Program-made: the position numbers and the translations under genes
Assembly (NCBI RefSeq): GCF_006874475.1
Contig: NZ_VIRM01000001.1
Coordinates: 62,001-126,000, forward strand
DNA length: 64,000 nt
Direction: 5' to 3'
Source of the DNA: Microbispora hainanensis
Lineage (GTDB): Bacteria > Actinomycetota > Actinomycetes > Streptosporangiales > Streptosporangiaceae
The notes under the pieces: generated by a model
Databases searched by the model: none
What the model was told of the DNA's origin: nothing
What the model saw: the letters and a program-made list of their open reading frames with translations, nothing else
Shown here: positions 31,300-62,524 of the stretch, one piece after another
Numbering within the stretch: the first letter of the stretch is position 1
Layout of the letters: the number at the start of each line of letters is the position of its first letter

Positions 31300-35511
<4,212 letters not shown>

Positions 35512-52452: not shown

Positions 52453-52640
52453 GCGGCACACCCCAAAGAAGCGCGAGCCGGGATGCTACGGCCGTCCGGC
52501 ATGAGCTCACCGCTGTCGTCGAAGAGCACAACGCCGTTGCAGAGCAGGCCCCATCCCTGCTCCGGGTGGAAAGCGATCAGACAGGCCGCGTCGCGGTCGG
52601 GTGCGTCCGCTGACGGGCACTGCGGGTGGTGCTGGCACAT
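52449..52640 (-). CDS. DUF5999 family protein
   Basis: A 63-aa protein matching the actinobacterial DUF5999 pattern: MCQHHPQCPSADAPDRDAA, then HPEQGWGLLCNGVVLFDD. Three Cys and two His near the N-terminus (C-x-H-H-x2-C...) could bind a metal. The function of the family is unknown. It is the first gene of a two-gene operon with the RsbW-like ATPase, whose start overlaps its stop by 4 bp, so it may act with that regulator. Confidence 0.82.
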   Translation of the reverse strand: MCQHHPQCPSADAPDRDAACLIAFHPEQGWGLLCNGVVLFDDSGELMPDGRSIPARASLGCAA

Positions 52641-52951
52641 GATCGGTCCCCCTGACTCTCATGCACTCTTTAGGACGTTTTCAGACTGCCTTCTTGCCCC
52701 TTGGTGCGAGGAGGGGGAAAACACCCGTATCGATACCTGTTCGAGGCATACGTACGTAGTGGGTGCTGGTCGGGTAGAGGACAGGTAAAGAGCCGCGGGT
52801 CCCTCACCCGTCCAGGGAGATCACTTCCTTTGCACGATCAACGGACCGGCTCGGAGGCCCCACGGCCCGGCTCGGGGTCGCCGCCGAGCGCCATCCCGGG
52901 CTCGGGACGCTACCCGGCCTTCGCCTCCGGATGGTCACTAAAGTGACGGGC
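52641..52951. promoter_or_regulatory. Divergent regulatory region with palindrome over a leaderless-type promoter
   Basis: No gene was seen. Its right end has the perfect inverted repeat GTCACT-AA-AGTGAC (52934-52947). This overlaps TAAAGT (52939-52944), which lies exactly 7 nt before ATG 52952, the first of three repeated mini-frames. A repressor bound there would block the promoter directly. The left end serves the divergent DUF5999 gene. Confidence 0.6.
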
Positions 52952-53032
52952 ATGAGTGAGCGGAGCGAGCGAATCAATAGGCACAGCGTCTGGCTCATGC
53001 CGCTCCGAGCCGGAGGCGAGGAGAGCGCATGA
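52952..53032 (+). CDS. 26-aa mini-ORF, repeat copy 1
   Basis: Starts MSERSERINRHSVWLMPLRA and ends in TGA 53030-53032, overlapping the next ATG (53029) as ATGA. It is preceded by TAAAGT and 7 nt, so probably leaderless. The peptide is not recognised as a known family. Function may lie in translation itself rather than in the product. Confidence 0.5.
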   Translation: MSERSERINRHSVWLMPLRAGGEESA

Positions 53033-53109
53033 GTGAGCGGAGCGAGCGAATCAAAAGGCACAGCGTCTGGCTCATGCCACTCCGAGCCGGAGGCGAGGAG
53101 AGCGCATGA
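53029..53109 (+). CDS. 26-aa mini-ORF, repeat copy 2
   Basis: Same peptide as copy 1 except Asn9 to Lys. Starts inside the stop of copy 1 and ends in TGA 53107-53109 overlapping copy 3. A GGAGGCGAGGAG ribosome site lies in the 3' end of copy 1. Confidence 0.5.
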   Translation: MSERSERIKRHSVWLMPLRAGGEESA

Positions 53110-53186
53110 GTGAGCGGAGCGAGCGAATCAATAGGCACAGCGTCTGGCTCATGCCGCTCCGAGCCGGAGGCGAGGAGAGCGCATGA
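53106..53186 (+). CDS. 26-aa mini-ORF, repeat copy 3
   Basis: Identical peptide to copy 1. Its TGA (53184-53186) overlaps the start codon of the oxidoreductase gene at 53183, completing the coupled chain. Confidence 0.5.
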   Translation: MSERSERINRHSVWLMPLRAGGEESA

Positions 53187-53644
53187 GCCCCAGGATCGCG
53201 ACCGCAGACAAGGTTTCCCGTGAGGAGTTGCTCGACTTCATCCGTGGTCGCCACCGGGCGATCCTGATCACGACGAGGCGCGACGGCGGCCCCCAGGCGT
53301 CCCCGGTGACGTGCGGAGTCGACGCCGAGGGCCGCATCGTCGTGTCCACCTATCCCGAGCGCGCCAAGACCCGCAACGCGCGCCGTGACCCGCGCGCGAG
53401 CGTCGTGGTGCTGTCGGACGACTTCGACGGGCCGTGGGTGCAGGTGGACGGCACCGCCGAGGTGCTCGACCTGCCGGAGGCCCTGGAGCCGCTGGTCGAG
53501 TATTACCGCTCGATCTCCGGGGAGCACCCCGACTGGGAGGAGTATCGCGCGGCCATGGTCCGCCAGGGCAAGTCGCTGGTGCGGATCACCCCGACGTCCT
53601 GGGGACCGGTGGCCACCGGCGGTTTCCCGCCGCGCCTGGCGTGA
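53183..53644 (+). CDS. PNPOx-like flavin/F420-dependent oxidoreductase
   Basis: A 153-aa split-barrel protein of the pyridoxamine-5'-phosphate-oxidase-like superfamily. RHRAILITTRRDGGPQASPVT and VVVSTYPERAKTRNARRDP match the actinobacterial F420-dependent FDOR-B (Rv1155-like) group. WVQVDGTAEVLDLPEA completes the barrel. The cofactor (F420 versus FMN) is inferred. Its ATG lies at the end of three 77-bp repeats and overlaps the last mini-frame stop. The MFS gene follows after 22 bp. Confidence 0.87.
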   Translation: MSPRIATADKVSREELLDFIRGRHRAILITTRRDGGPQASPVTCGVDAEGRIVVSTYPERAKTRNARRDPRASVVVLSDDFDGPWVQVDGTAEVLDLPEALEPLVEYYRSISGEHPDWEEYRAAMVRQGKSLVRITPTSWGPVATGGFPPRLA

Positions 53645-53666
53645 TGGGCCGTTCCCGCACCGGCCC

Positions 53667-54833
53667 GTGAGCCGCGCGCGCCTGTGGCCCCTGTATGCCG
53701 CGGGGTTCACCACCGCCTTCGGCGCGCACGGCATCGCGGCCAATCTCGGCGTGGCCGGCGACGGCGCGGGAGCGTCCCTGCTCCGGCTCGGCCTGCTGCT
53801 CGCCCTGTATGACGGCGCCGAGGTCGTGCTCAAACCGGCGTTCGGCACGCTGGCCGACCGGATCGGCCCGCGCCCGGTGCTCGTGGGCGGCCTCGTCGCG
53901 TTCGTCCTCGCTTCGGGCGGCTACGTGGTGGCGGCGCGGCTCGATGGTCTTTCGGACACCGGGTGGCTCCTGGCGGCGCGGCTGGGGCAGGGCGCGGCGG
54001 CCTCGGCGTTCTCGCCCGCGGCGTCCGCGCTGGTCGCGCGGCTGACACCGGAGACCGCGCGCGGCCGGGCCTTCGGCTCGTACGGCTTCTACAAGAGCAT
54101 CGGCTACACGCTCGGCCCCTTCCTCGGCGGAGCGGTCGTGGCGGCGGGTGGACTGCGCTCGCTGTTCGCGGTCATGGCCGTGCTGGCCGCCGCGGTGGCC
54201 TGCTGGGCGGCCTTCGCGGTGCCCCGGGTGCCGCCGCTGCCGCGCACCAGGCAGACCGTGGGGGACCTCGTCCGGCGTGTCGCCGATCCCGGGTTCCTGA
54301 GGCCGGTGACGGCCCTGGCGGCGGGGACGGCGGCGCTGTCGGTGGGGGTCGGCTTCCTGCCGGTGTCCGGCCGGGCGGACGGGCTCGGGCCGATCACGAC
54401 CGGTGCCGCCGTTTCCGTGCTGGCGGCGTGCGCCGCCGTCGCCCAGCCGCTCGCGGGCTGGGCGCTCGACGCGAGGAGGATCAGCGCGGTCCAGGGCCTG
54501 GCCACCGGGCTGCTGCTCTGCGCGGCGGCCTTCGTGATCGCCGCCGTGCCGGGCGTGGTCCCGCTCGTCCTGGCGGCGGCGACGGCGGGCGCGGGGATCG
54601 GCCTGGTCACTCCGCTCGGGTTCGCCGTTCTGGCCGAGGCCACGCCTCCCGAGCGCATGGGCCAGACCATGGGAAGCGCCGAGGTGGGCCGGGAGATCGG
54701 CGACGCGGGCGGCCCGCTCCTCGTCGGGGCGGTCGCGACCGCGCTGTCCCTGACCTCGGGTTATCTGCTGCTGGCCGGGCTGCTCGCGGGTGCCGCCGCG
54801 TATGCGGGCAGGCGCGGGCGCTGGGCGGCGTGA
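53667..54833 (+). CDS. MFS transporter
   Basis: A 388-aa twelve-helix MFS exporter. It has motif A LKPAFGTLADRIGPRPVLVG, AARLGQGAAASAFSPAASAL (motif C-like Gly/Ala helix) and GRAFGSYGFYKSIGYTLGPF typical of drug:H+ antiporters. The GTG at 53667 lies 22 bp after the oxidoreductase stop, so the two form an operon, perhaps detoxification plus efflux. It ends 1 bp before the convergent AraC gene. Confidence 0.85.
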   Translation: MSRARLWPLYAAGFTTAFGAHGIAANLGVAGDGAGASLLRLGLLLALYDGAEVVLKPAFGTLADRIGPRPVLVGGLVAFVLASGGYVVAARLDGLSDTGWLLAARLGQGAAASAFSPAASALVARLTPETARGRAFGSYGFYKSIGYTLGPFLGGAVVAAGGLRSLFAVMAVLAAAVACWAAFAVPRVPPLPRTRQTVGDLVRRVADPGFLRPVTALAAGTAALSVGVGFLPVSGRADGLGPITTGAAVSVLAACAAVAQPLAGWALDARRISAVQGLATGLLLCAAAFVIAAVPGVVPLVLAAATAGAGIGLVTPLGFAVLAEATPPERMGQTMGSAEVGREIGDAGGPLLVGAVATALSLTSGYLLLAGLLAGAAAYAGRRGRWAA

Positions 54834-61421: not shown

Positions 61422-62524
61422 CGGCCGTGCTGCCGACGATCCGGGACTTCGAGGCGGCGGCCCGCGCCCGGCTCGACCCCGCCCACTACGACTACTTCGC
61501 CGGCGGGGCCGGCGACGAGATCACGGTGAAGGCCAACGAGGCGGCGTTCGCGCGGCTCGCGCTGCTGCCGCGGGTCCTGCGCGGCGCGGGGACCCCGAAC
61601 ATCGGGGTCACCCTCCTGGGTGGCCGCGTGGCCATGCCGGTGCTGGTGGCGCCGACCGCGTTCCACCGGCTCGCCGACCCGGAGGGGGAGAAGGCCACGG
61701 CCCGCGCGGCGGCCGCCGCCGAAACCGTGATGATCGTGAGCATGGCCGCCACGGTCGCCGTCGAGGACGTCGCGGCCGCGGCGCCGGGCGCCACCCTGTG
61801 GTTCCAGCTTTACGTGCAGCCCGACATGGACTTCACCGAGTCGATCGTCCGGCGCGCCGAGAAGGCAGGCTGCGCCGCGCTGGTCGTCACCGCGGACTCG
61901 CCCGCCCGGGGACGCCGGGACCAGGACGTGCGCAACGGCTTCGACGACCTGCCCGAGGGCATGTGCTGCGAGAACCTGCGCGACGGCGACGGCGACGGCG
62001 ACGGTGACGGCGACGGCGACGGTGACGGCGACGGCGACGGCGACCGCGGGCCGGTGCGGCCGATCGTCATGTCACCGGTGATCTCCTGGGAGCACGTCGA
62101 TCTGCTGCGGCGGATGACCCGGCTGCCGATCGTGCTCAAGGGCGTCACGCACCCCGCCGACGCGCGCCTCGCCCTCGACCACGGCGTCTCGGCGCTGTAC
62201 GTCTCCAACCACGGCGGACGGCAGCTCGACGGCGTTCCCGCCGCCGTCGACCTGCTGCCGGAGATCGTGGCCGCCGTCGGCGGGGCCATACCGGTGCTGA
62301 TGGACGGCGGCATCCGGCGCGGCACCGACGTGGTCAAGGCGATGGCGCTGGGCGCGTCCGCCGTCGCGGTCGGCCGTCCGGTGATCTGGGGTCTTGCGGC
62401 AGGCGGCGAGCGCGGCGTGGCCCACGTGCTCGAACTGCTGCGCGACGAGGTCGAGCACGCGCTCACGCTGTGCGGCCTCGCCTCGATCCGTGACCTGGAG
62501 CCGGGGCTGGTGCGGCGATGCTGA
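61418..62524 (+). CDS. FMN-dependent alpha-hydroxyacid oxidase
   Basis: A 368-aa TIM-barrel flavoenzyme of the glycolate/lactate/mandelate oxidase family, oxidising a 2-hydroxy acid to the 2-oxo acid. YFAGGAGDEITVKANEAAF opens it, VTADSPARGRRDQDVRN follows, and the catalytic LYVSNHGGRQLDGVPA and MDGGIRRGTDVVKAMALGA are intact. Loop 4 is expanded by a Asp-Gly repeat of about 20 residues (61981-62046). GTG 61418 overlaps the previous stop (GTGA), so it is translationally coupled. The substrate is inferred to come from the operon's pathway. Confidence 0.93.
   Translation: MTAVLPTIRDFEAAARARLDPAHYDYFAGGAGDEITVKANEAAFARLALLPRVLRGAGTPNIGVTLLGGRVAMPVLVAPTAFHRLADPEGEKATARAAAAAETVMIVSMAATVAVEDVAAAAPGATLWFQLYVQPDMDFTESIVRRAEKAGCAALVVTADSPARGRRDQDVRNGFDDLPEGMCCENLRDGDGDGDGDGDGDGDGDGDGDRGPVRPIVMSPVISWEHVDLLRRMTRLPIVLKGVTHPADARLALDHGVSALYVSNHGGRQLDGVPAAVDLLPEIVAAVGGAIPVLMDGGIRRGTDVVKAMALGASAVAVGRPVIWGLAAGGERGVAHVLELLRDEVEHALTLCGLASIRDLEPGLVRRC
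61981..62046 (+). repeat. Hexanucleotide microsatellite encoding poly-(Asp-Gly)
   Basis: Ten consecutive units of (c/t)gacgg plus one cgaccg in the oxidase gene. They encode alternating Asp and Gly in the flexible active-site loop 4 region. The unit is a multiple of three, so copy-number changes keep the frame. Confidence 0.95.

Follow-up and report, generated by a model that had tools for sequence, protein, structure and literature searches.

Tandem repeats with ATGA-overlapping mini-ORFs at gene start codons in Microbispora hainanensis and its relatives

A triple repeat ahead of an oxidoreductase-like gene

The window, by which we mean the whole stretch of 64,000 nucleotides of Microbispora hainanensis DNA that was analyzed (positions 62,001 to 126,000 of contig NZ_VIRM01000001.1), contains on its plus strand a gene for a 153-aa protein with a PNPOx_N domain (53183..53644; Pfam PF01243, E 2e-18; pyridoxamine 5'-phosphate oxidase-like). 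Immediately upstream of this gene, a tandem-repeat scan detected an array with a 77-bp period, 3.1 copies and 97% matches (52950-53187). The array is made up of three 77-bp units on the same strand (52952..53028, 53029..53105, and 53106..53182), each of which opens with ATGAG and carries a frame of 26 codons (mini-ORFs at 52952-53032, 53029-53109, and 53106-53186). The TGA of each mini-ORF shares an ATGA with the ATG of the next unit, and the third TGA does so with the ATG of the oxidoreductase gene at 53183. The ends of the units cannot be placed exactly because ATGAG is present at each end. The original prediction, which had been made from the sequence at 52952-53186, described three 77-bp repeats, each encoding a 26-aa peptide and passing through ATGA overlaps into the oxidoreductase ATG, and this layout is confirmed. 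It had also called the three mini-ORFs identical, which is true of units 1 and 3; unit 2 deviates from them at two bases (position 27, T to A; position 51, G to A), with the replacement of N9 by K as the sole change in its peptide.

A predicted and conserved -10-like hexamer, TAAAGT (52939..52944, plus strand), lies 7 nt upstream of the first ATG. At all 15 orthologous loci, whether filled with units or empty, the sequence TARAGT is followed after 6-7 nt by the first ATG, and this spacing is the same when that ATG belongs to the gene itself and when it belongs to the first mini-ORF. A generic sigma-70 promoter scan of the region 52640-53700 found no promoter. For Streptomyces coelicolor, one study gives TANNNT as the -10 motif and reports that about 21% of the mRNAs are leaderless (PMC4895711). 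The array at the window gene is likely to have a leaderless start at its first mini-ORF, as predicted from these sequence features.

Dispersed copies, filled sites and empty sites

Further units stand at gene starts in the same genome, on contigs C135 (92%), C198 (84%), and C204 (a 107-nt form), with a diverged one on C189; the copy on C135 precedes a gene for an ABC-transporter-like ATPase, and a search with a second query added another unit on C124. Within the genus Microbispora, 14 of the 15 genomes searched possess matches at E<=1e-6, and one (G006) is without a match at this threshold. An exact composite pattern was found in 53 stretches of the GTDB contigs, which come from Microbispora, Planomonospora, Planotetraspora, Microtetraspora, Planobispora, Streptosporangium, and one further member of the Streptosporangiaceae. 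A sample of the family yielded matches in at least 17 of 120 genomes and at least 10 of 68 genera, figures that are a lower bound, with at most seven candidates scored per genome. A search of a plasmid collection in 'distant' mode left the array unmatched.

For the genus unit set, we used the places of the genus matches at E<=1e-6 together with four loci of the M. hainanensis genome itself (L004-L007). BLAST provided 118 distinct match contexts, from which a parser that required the 5' motif recovered 92 units in 78 loci; 12 contexts were left as 5' ends only (some of them chance matches, contig ends or in-frame fusions), and copies without the 5' motif are outside all unit counts. Copies at the same locus in related species share descent, and the 92 units are not 92 independent events. 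The recurrence of the unit before start codons, which the original prediction had proposed as a check, holds across the genus: 71 of the 72 terminal units directly adjoin an ORF of 100 aa or more, and the exception (L067) leads via an 11-codon frame to another ATGA. Five rechecked terminal units (L042, L077, L109, L063, and L070) all adjoin ORFs of 116-437 aa and would raise this count to 76/77; those at L063 and L070 run into a gene that opens with a fused 5' fragment of the repeat. In 50 of the 77 first units, the TGA within the unit's ATGA closes an open frame of 60 codons or more that comes from upstream. This count is an upper estimate, and an inflated one: the unit itself supplies the TGA for whatever open frame enters it in that phase, and some of the 77 come after a truncated unit.

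The downstream genes fall into at least 32 groups in the genus, so worded because one of the 33 groups obtained is the 11-codon frame of L067. From our own recognition of the proteins, we take some of these genes to be ilvN, ribH, rsmE, pnuC, and a hydantoinase gene. This diversity bears on the suggestion that the array gates the expression of the enzyme. A translational gate specific to this gene, under which the three mini-ORFs and their hairpins would have arisen as a regulator of the oxidoreductase that works like a leader peptide (e.g., through sensing of ribosome supply or of an amino acid), would fit with the stable predicted hairpin in which each start is paired and with the intact chain of mini-ORFs. 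However, at least 32 different gene groups have units before them, the window gene is without units in 8 of 15 species while the others possess one to three, the coupled units encode 76 distinct peptides, and the translations of the three window mini-ORFs contain no single-amino-acid run. We have dropped the gate as the main reading on account of the number of gene groups and the empty orthologs, and consider it to have only a very slim chance of being correct.

Seven of the 15 genomes carry one to three units at the ortholog of the window gene, and eight are empty. In the empty orthologs, the flank passes straight into ATGAG, the insertion being clean at the start codon, while every chain of mini-ORFs in the filled orthologs is unbroken. 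We scored 89 sites at six other loci and found 36 inserts and 28 empty sites; one 3-nt difference was set aside, and 24 sites were unscorable with the flank strings used. All 32 single inserts stop on the gene's ATG, including those of 41, 44, 47, 65, 68, 71, and 110 nt, and in the four arrays the first frame, which is the one tested, stops on the next ATG. The coupling phase is thus kept in eroded inserts (41-110 nt) as well. A few short inserts (e.g., at ribH in G002 and G012) contain little recognisable repeat sequence, and their position suggests that they descend from the repeat. Some of the genes scored as empty open with repeat-like codons (G002 at the L036 locus; G000 and G009 at the hydantoinase-like locus). 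The ilvN locus, the seventh, was read by eye only.

Dispersed copies, filled and empty orthologous sites and insertion at start codons agree with the mobile leader cassette that had been offered as one possibility, and it is from this distribution that we infer movement by transposition rather than gene conversion or loss. The scatter of filled and empty states across the 15 genomes, and the fact that no mobiliser is known, could also be accommodated without any insertion if ancestral units had been precisely lost in some lineages, or if the repeat had spread only by gene conversion between copies already in place. Yet precise loss at many loci would require recombination between repeats of 4-5 nt, copies at different loci in different species reach 97.5% identity, and several empty sites look by eye like ordinary ATGA overlaps (e.g., the hydantoinase-like locus). 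We regard loss or conversion as very improbable, and insertion remains our preferred reading.

Tandem copies have a mean identity of 97% (13 pairs, one of them at 78%), compared with 85-86% for copies at different loci. In the arrays at L044, L065, and L063, the copies within an array are far more alike than copies from different loci. By eye, the 104-nt and 77-nt units of L044 hold private bases in common, which suggests a local duplication with gain or loss of a middle segment.

Conservation of the frame and of the hairpin

The 92 units have lengths of 68 (2 units), 72 (1), 77 (27), 78 (1), 80 (44), 81 (2), 104 (7), and 107 nt (8), so that 71 of them are of 77 or 80 nt and 15 of 104 or 107 nt. 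In 88 units, the length is 2 mod 3, the phase that lets the mini-ORF end on the following ATG; in four it is 0 mod 3 (three of these read on into the gene, the fourth into another mini-ORF), and in none is it 1 mod 3. The exact ATGA overlap is present at the 3' end of 87 units and missing from the other five, one of which has the right phase but meets a gene that starts with ATGG. None of the 92 units has an in-frame stop in the mini-ORF frame, versus 9 and 72 in the other two frames. The 85 distinct unit sequences give 76 distinct peptides among the coupled units. By eye, the 77- and 80-nt types have GCTCCGAGCCG in common but read it in different frames, and yet both end coupled; the peptide is therefore not what is kept. 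A codon-position test for selection on the peptide was weak: mean entropies at codon positions 1 to 3 are 0.208, 0.304, and 0.436 for the 23 distinct units of the 77-nt type, a mild bias, and 0.357, 0.367, and 0.391 for the 42 distinct units of the 80-nt type, a slight one. As judged by comparing the units, the frame is conserved and the peptide much less so, and this conservation suggests that the mini-ORFs are translated.

The unit-3 hairpin (GCTCATGCCGCTCC...GGAGAGCGCATGAGC; 53146..53189, plus strand) is predicted to pair the GAGGAG region and the start codon of the gene with sequence further upstream in the unit; a like fold is predicted for units 1 and 2, onto the start of the unit that follows. 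The segment 53140-53195 folds at -30.1 kcal/mol versus -21.7 +/- 3.1 kcal/mol for shuffled sequences (z -2.7), and 3 of 200 shuffles were as good. The hairpin pairs are retained in nearly all units of 77 and 80 nt. When the arms were shuffled among the genus units, the pairing was supported overall (1/200) and in the 80-nt type (4/200), in which one hairpin pair is TA in 28 of 41 units and CG in 12 of 41; the same test was negative for the 77-nt (75/200), 104-nt (170/200), and 107-nt (65/200) types. Eight units of another bacterial family (f22) possess an equivalent hairpin with compensatory changes at three pairs, 97.9% of the cells being paired. Its covariation score and its double-changed cells exceed all 500 shuffles, while two of the five measures, the counts of double-changed pairs and of pair types, are not above the shuffles (203/500 and 153/500). 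The earlier idea that a pairing hides each start until the preceding frame is translated consequently stands in part: the pairing of CTCATGC with GCATGAG is possible at the folding energy given above and has its compensatory changes in f22, and the shuffle test of the 77-nt type, to which the window units belong, gave it no support.

A conserved hairpin with compensatory changes, a fixed target tetranucleotide and tandem copies would also be found in a passive palindrome of the REP/RAYT type that is spread by a Y1 transposase, with the hairpin serving DNA mobility and the frame being incidental. For an incidental frame, however, the phase kept in 88 of 92 units and in the eroded inserts is unexpected, and the Y1 transposase (PF01797) was not found in the M. 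hainanensis genome or in five other genomes of the genus. Of all the readings weighed here, we give this one the lowest chance; it concerns the role of the frame only, since the element could still be moved by a Y1 transposase or some other enzyme. In our search of 15 genus genomes for PF01797, nine had matches and six, among them M. hainanensis with none, were without; five of these six carry the repeat. The Y1 transposase, the sole type of mobiliser sought, was rejected as a candidate mover in view of this lack of association with the presence of the repeat. The preferred reading, in which the frame itself matters to the host gene, is set out below.

Comparison with MIRUs and proposed explanation

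MIRUs (mycobacterial interspersed repetitive units) insert into DTGA sites with an overlap at both ends, and their founding description is said to be that of Supply et al. in 1997. Although the original prediction knew of no described system of the kind seen here, these mycobacterial elements, as two papers describe them, answer to it (PMC12548453; PMC4213456). MIRUs are described as inserting at start codons with a coupling of -4 nt (PMC12548453) and as being 46-101 bp long (PMC3914561); the senX3-regX3 intergenic region of strain H37Rv contains three MIRUs of 77 bp, all identical, and reportedly drives the expression of regX3 independently of senX3 (PMC4213456). The Microbispora units resemble MIRUs in that they are short, dispersed and often tandem, with the 104- and 107-nt forms lying just above the MIRU range, and in that a small ORF spans the unit on the same strand as the neighbouring gene (in-frame stops in 0/92; long ORF adjoining in 71/72). 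Further points of likeness are the DTGA overlap with the neighbours (87/92 at the 3' end and, as an upper estimate, 50/77 at the 5' end), the position at start codons with empty sites present, and the variable tandem number, which at the window gene ranges from 0 to 3 across 15 genomes. They differ in host group and in sequence. By its layout, the Microbispora repeat appears to work like a MIRU, and it is not one by sequence or host.

An exact pattern for a MIRU core was found in 12 of 393 genomes of the class, all in one of 122 genera, presumably Mycobacterium, and in none of the six Microbispora genomes drawn. Among 20 fetched loci with this core, at least seven have the DTGA-to-DTGA layout by our own reading, and several others do not. 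The sole stretch that, by eye, MIRUs and the Microbispora repeat have in common is GAGCGNAGCGA, which we read as ERS in both. The open-access papers searched gave us no description of the repeat sequence or of MIRU-like elements outside the mycobacteria.

With a probability of roughly 0.85, we propose that the array consists of tandem copies of a MIRU-like, non-autonomous repeat that has start codons as its sites of entry, and that this repeat is tolerated since its mini-ORF hands ribosomes on beyond the start-hiding hairpin. The repeat would enter at a DTGA start codon, where its first codon would take over the original initiation site, while the gene would receive from the 3' end of the repeat both a new ATGA junction and a ribosome site rich in purines. 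The mini-ORF would carry ribosomes across the hairpin that pairs the ribosome site and the start codon of the gene, and its TGA would release them for re-initiation on the gene's ATG, so that the insertion would cost the gene little. From then on, selection would act to keep the mini-ORF's reading frame and not the peptide that it encodes. In the case of the window gene, a leaderless start was probably taken over by the first mini-ORF, after which the unit may have multiplied locally to three. The ribosome relay, which formed part of the original prediction, finds support of an evolutionary kind in the 88 of 92 units in phase, in the complete absence of in-frame stops from the 92, and in the 32 of 32 single inserts that stop on the gene's ATG. 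The phase kept in short, decayed inserts offers natural evidence that a gene can come to depend on a tiny upstream frame. Many filled and empty sites are available in related species, and the orthologs of the window gene amount to natural constructs with 0 to 3 relays ahead of one gene.

Other known systems have some of these properties. REP/RAYT, ERIC, and BOX elements are short, non-autonomous hairpin repeats of intergenic regions; the Microbispora repeat is likewise short, non-autonomous, hairpin-bearing and present in many copies, but it departs from those extragenic elements, which have no kept frame, in that it preserves its phase and lies at start codons. Rickettsia palindromic elements are mobile repeats that are inserted in proteins with the frame kept open. 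Four Microbispora units and several 5' fragments likewise continue in frame, while the main form, in contrast to an insertion inside a protein, stops on the next start. In the bicistronic expression designs of biotechnology, a short upstream ORF brings ribosomes to the start and removes concern over repressive structure (PMC12548453); unlike the Microbispora repeat, these designs are engineered and not mobile.

Related sequences beyond the Streptosporangiaceae

An 18-nt pattern that excludes the start codon, GAGCGNAGCGAGCGAATC, occurs in 21 of 296 genomes of the class, while its reverse occurs in none of the 296. We read all 23 matches outside the family and found that 18 of them are mini-ORFs of 12-59 codons that run from DTGA to DTGA ahead of ORFs that are 143 aa long or longer; these belong to the families f8, f13, f16, and f22. 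Of the other five, three lie in one in-frame array (G198) and two look like chance. The viral contigs, used as background, contain nine stretches with GAGCGNAGCGAGCGAATC, none of which has the start/stop architecture. With a motif that includes the start, 22 of 31 further loci yielded 28 frames, 25 in other genera of the Streptosporangiaceae and three in Microbispora. By script, 27 of these 28 frames end at DTGA; a stricter count gives 25, with L167 being two 6-codon frames without a long ORF and three rows of L155 being one nested chain. The same architecture thus appears, on the sequence evidence, in four other families, and repeats that sit on start codons and carry a coupled mini-ORF are not peculiar to mycobacteria.

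Two loci contain fused units. An array in another family (L261; G198:C22:32678-32851) consists of 78-bp units in which the inner starts are GCAAGC in place of ATGA, and the units are therefore fused into one frame of 78 codons. At L155:1500-1740 (G108), units of 81 nt (0 mod 3) are fused in frame to give 77 codons, and this fused frame still ends on ATGA ahead of an ORF of 452 codons.

More tentatively, and with the odds somewhat against it, MIRUs could represent one branch of a superfamily of start-codon repeats that extends over the class Actinomycetes and is characterized by a GAGCGNAGCGA-like core, entry at DTGA, a start-silencing hairpin, a dependent gene and a frame that selection keeps after decay. 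As part of this proposal, GAGCGNAGCGA may descend from an ancestor common to both repeat families. If true, the superfamily would act as a ratchet that leaves behind permanent mini-ORFs and new MSERSER N-termini of proteins.

At L008:1501 (C209:38061), L011:1501 (C222:21108), L070:1581, and L353, long ORFs begin with 5' fragments of the repeat, which make up their N-terminus (MSERSER...). One such ORF in the M. hainanensis genome presumably encodes a short-chain-dehydrogenase-like protein, and the relative of this ORF in G003 is preceded by a full unit as well. The repeat would explain a class of frames of 26-35 codons, and also MSERSER N-termini, which may be either called or overlooked in annotation. 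Elsewhere in the window, the minus strand carries six tandem copies of a 276-bp sequence (33399-35061; 79% matches) that form one open frame of 92-residue repeats, which in our view resemble the HAMP arrays of sensor kinases.
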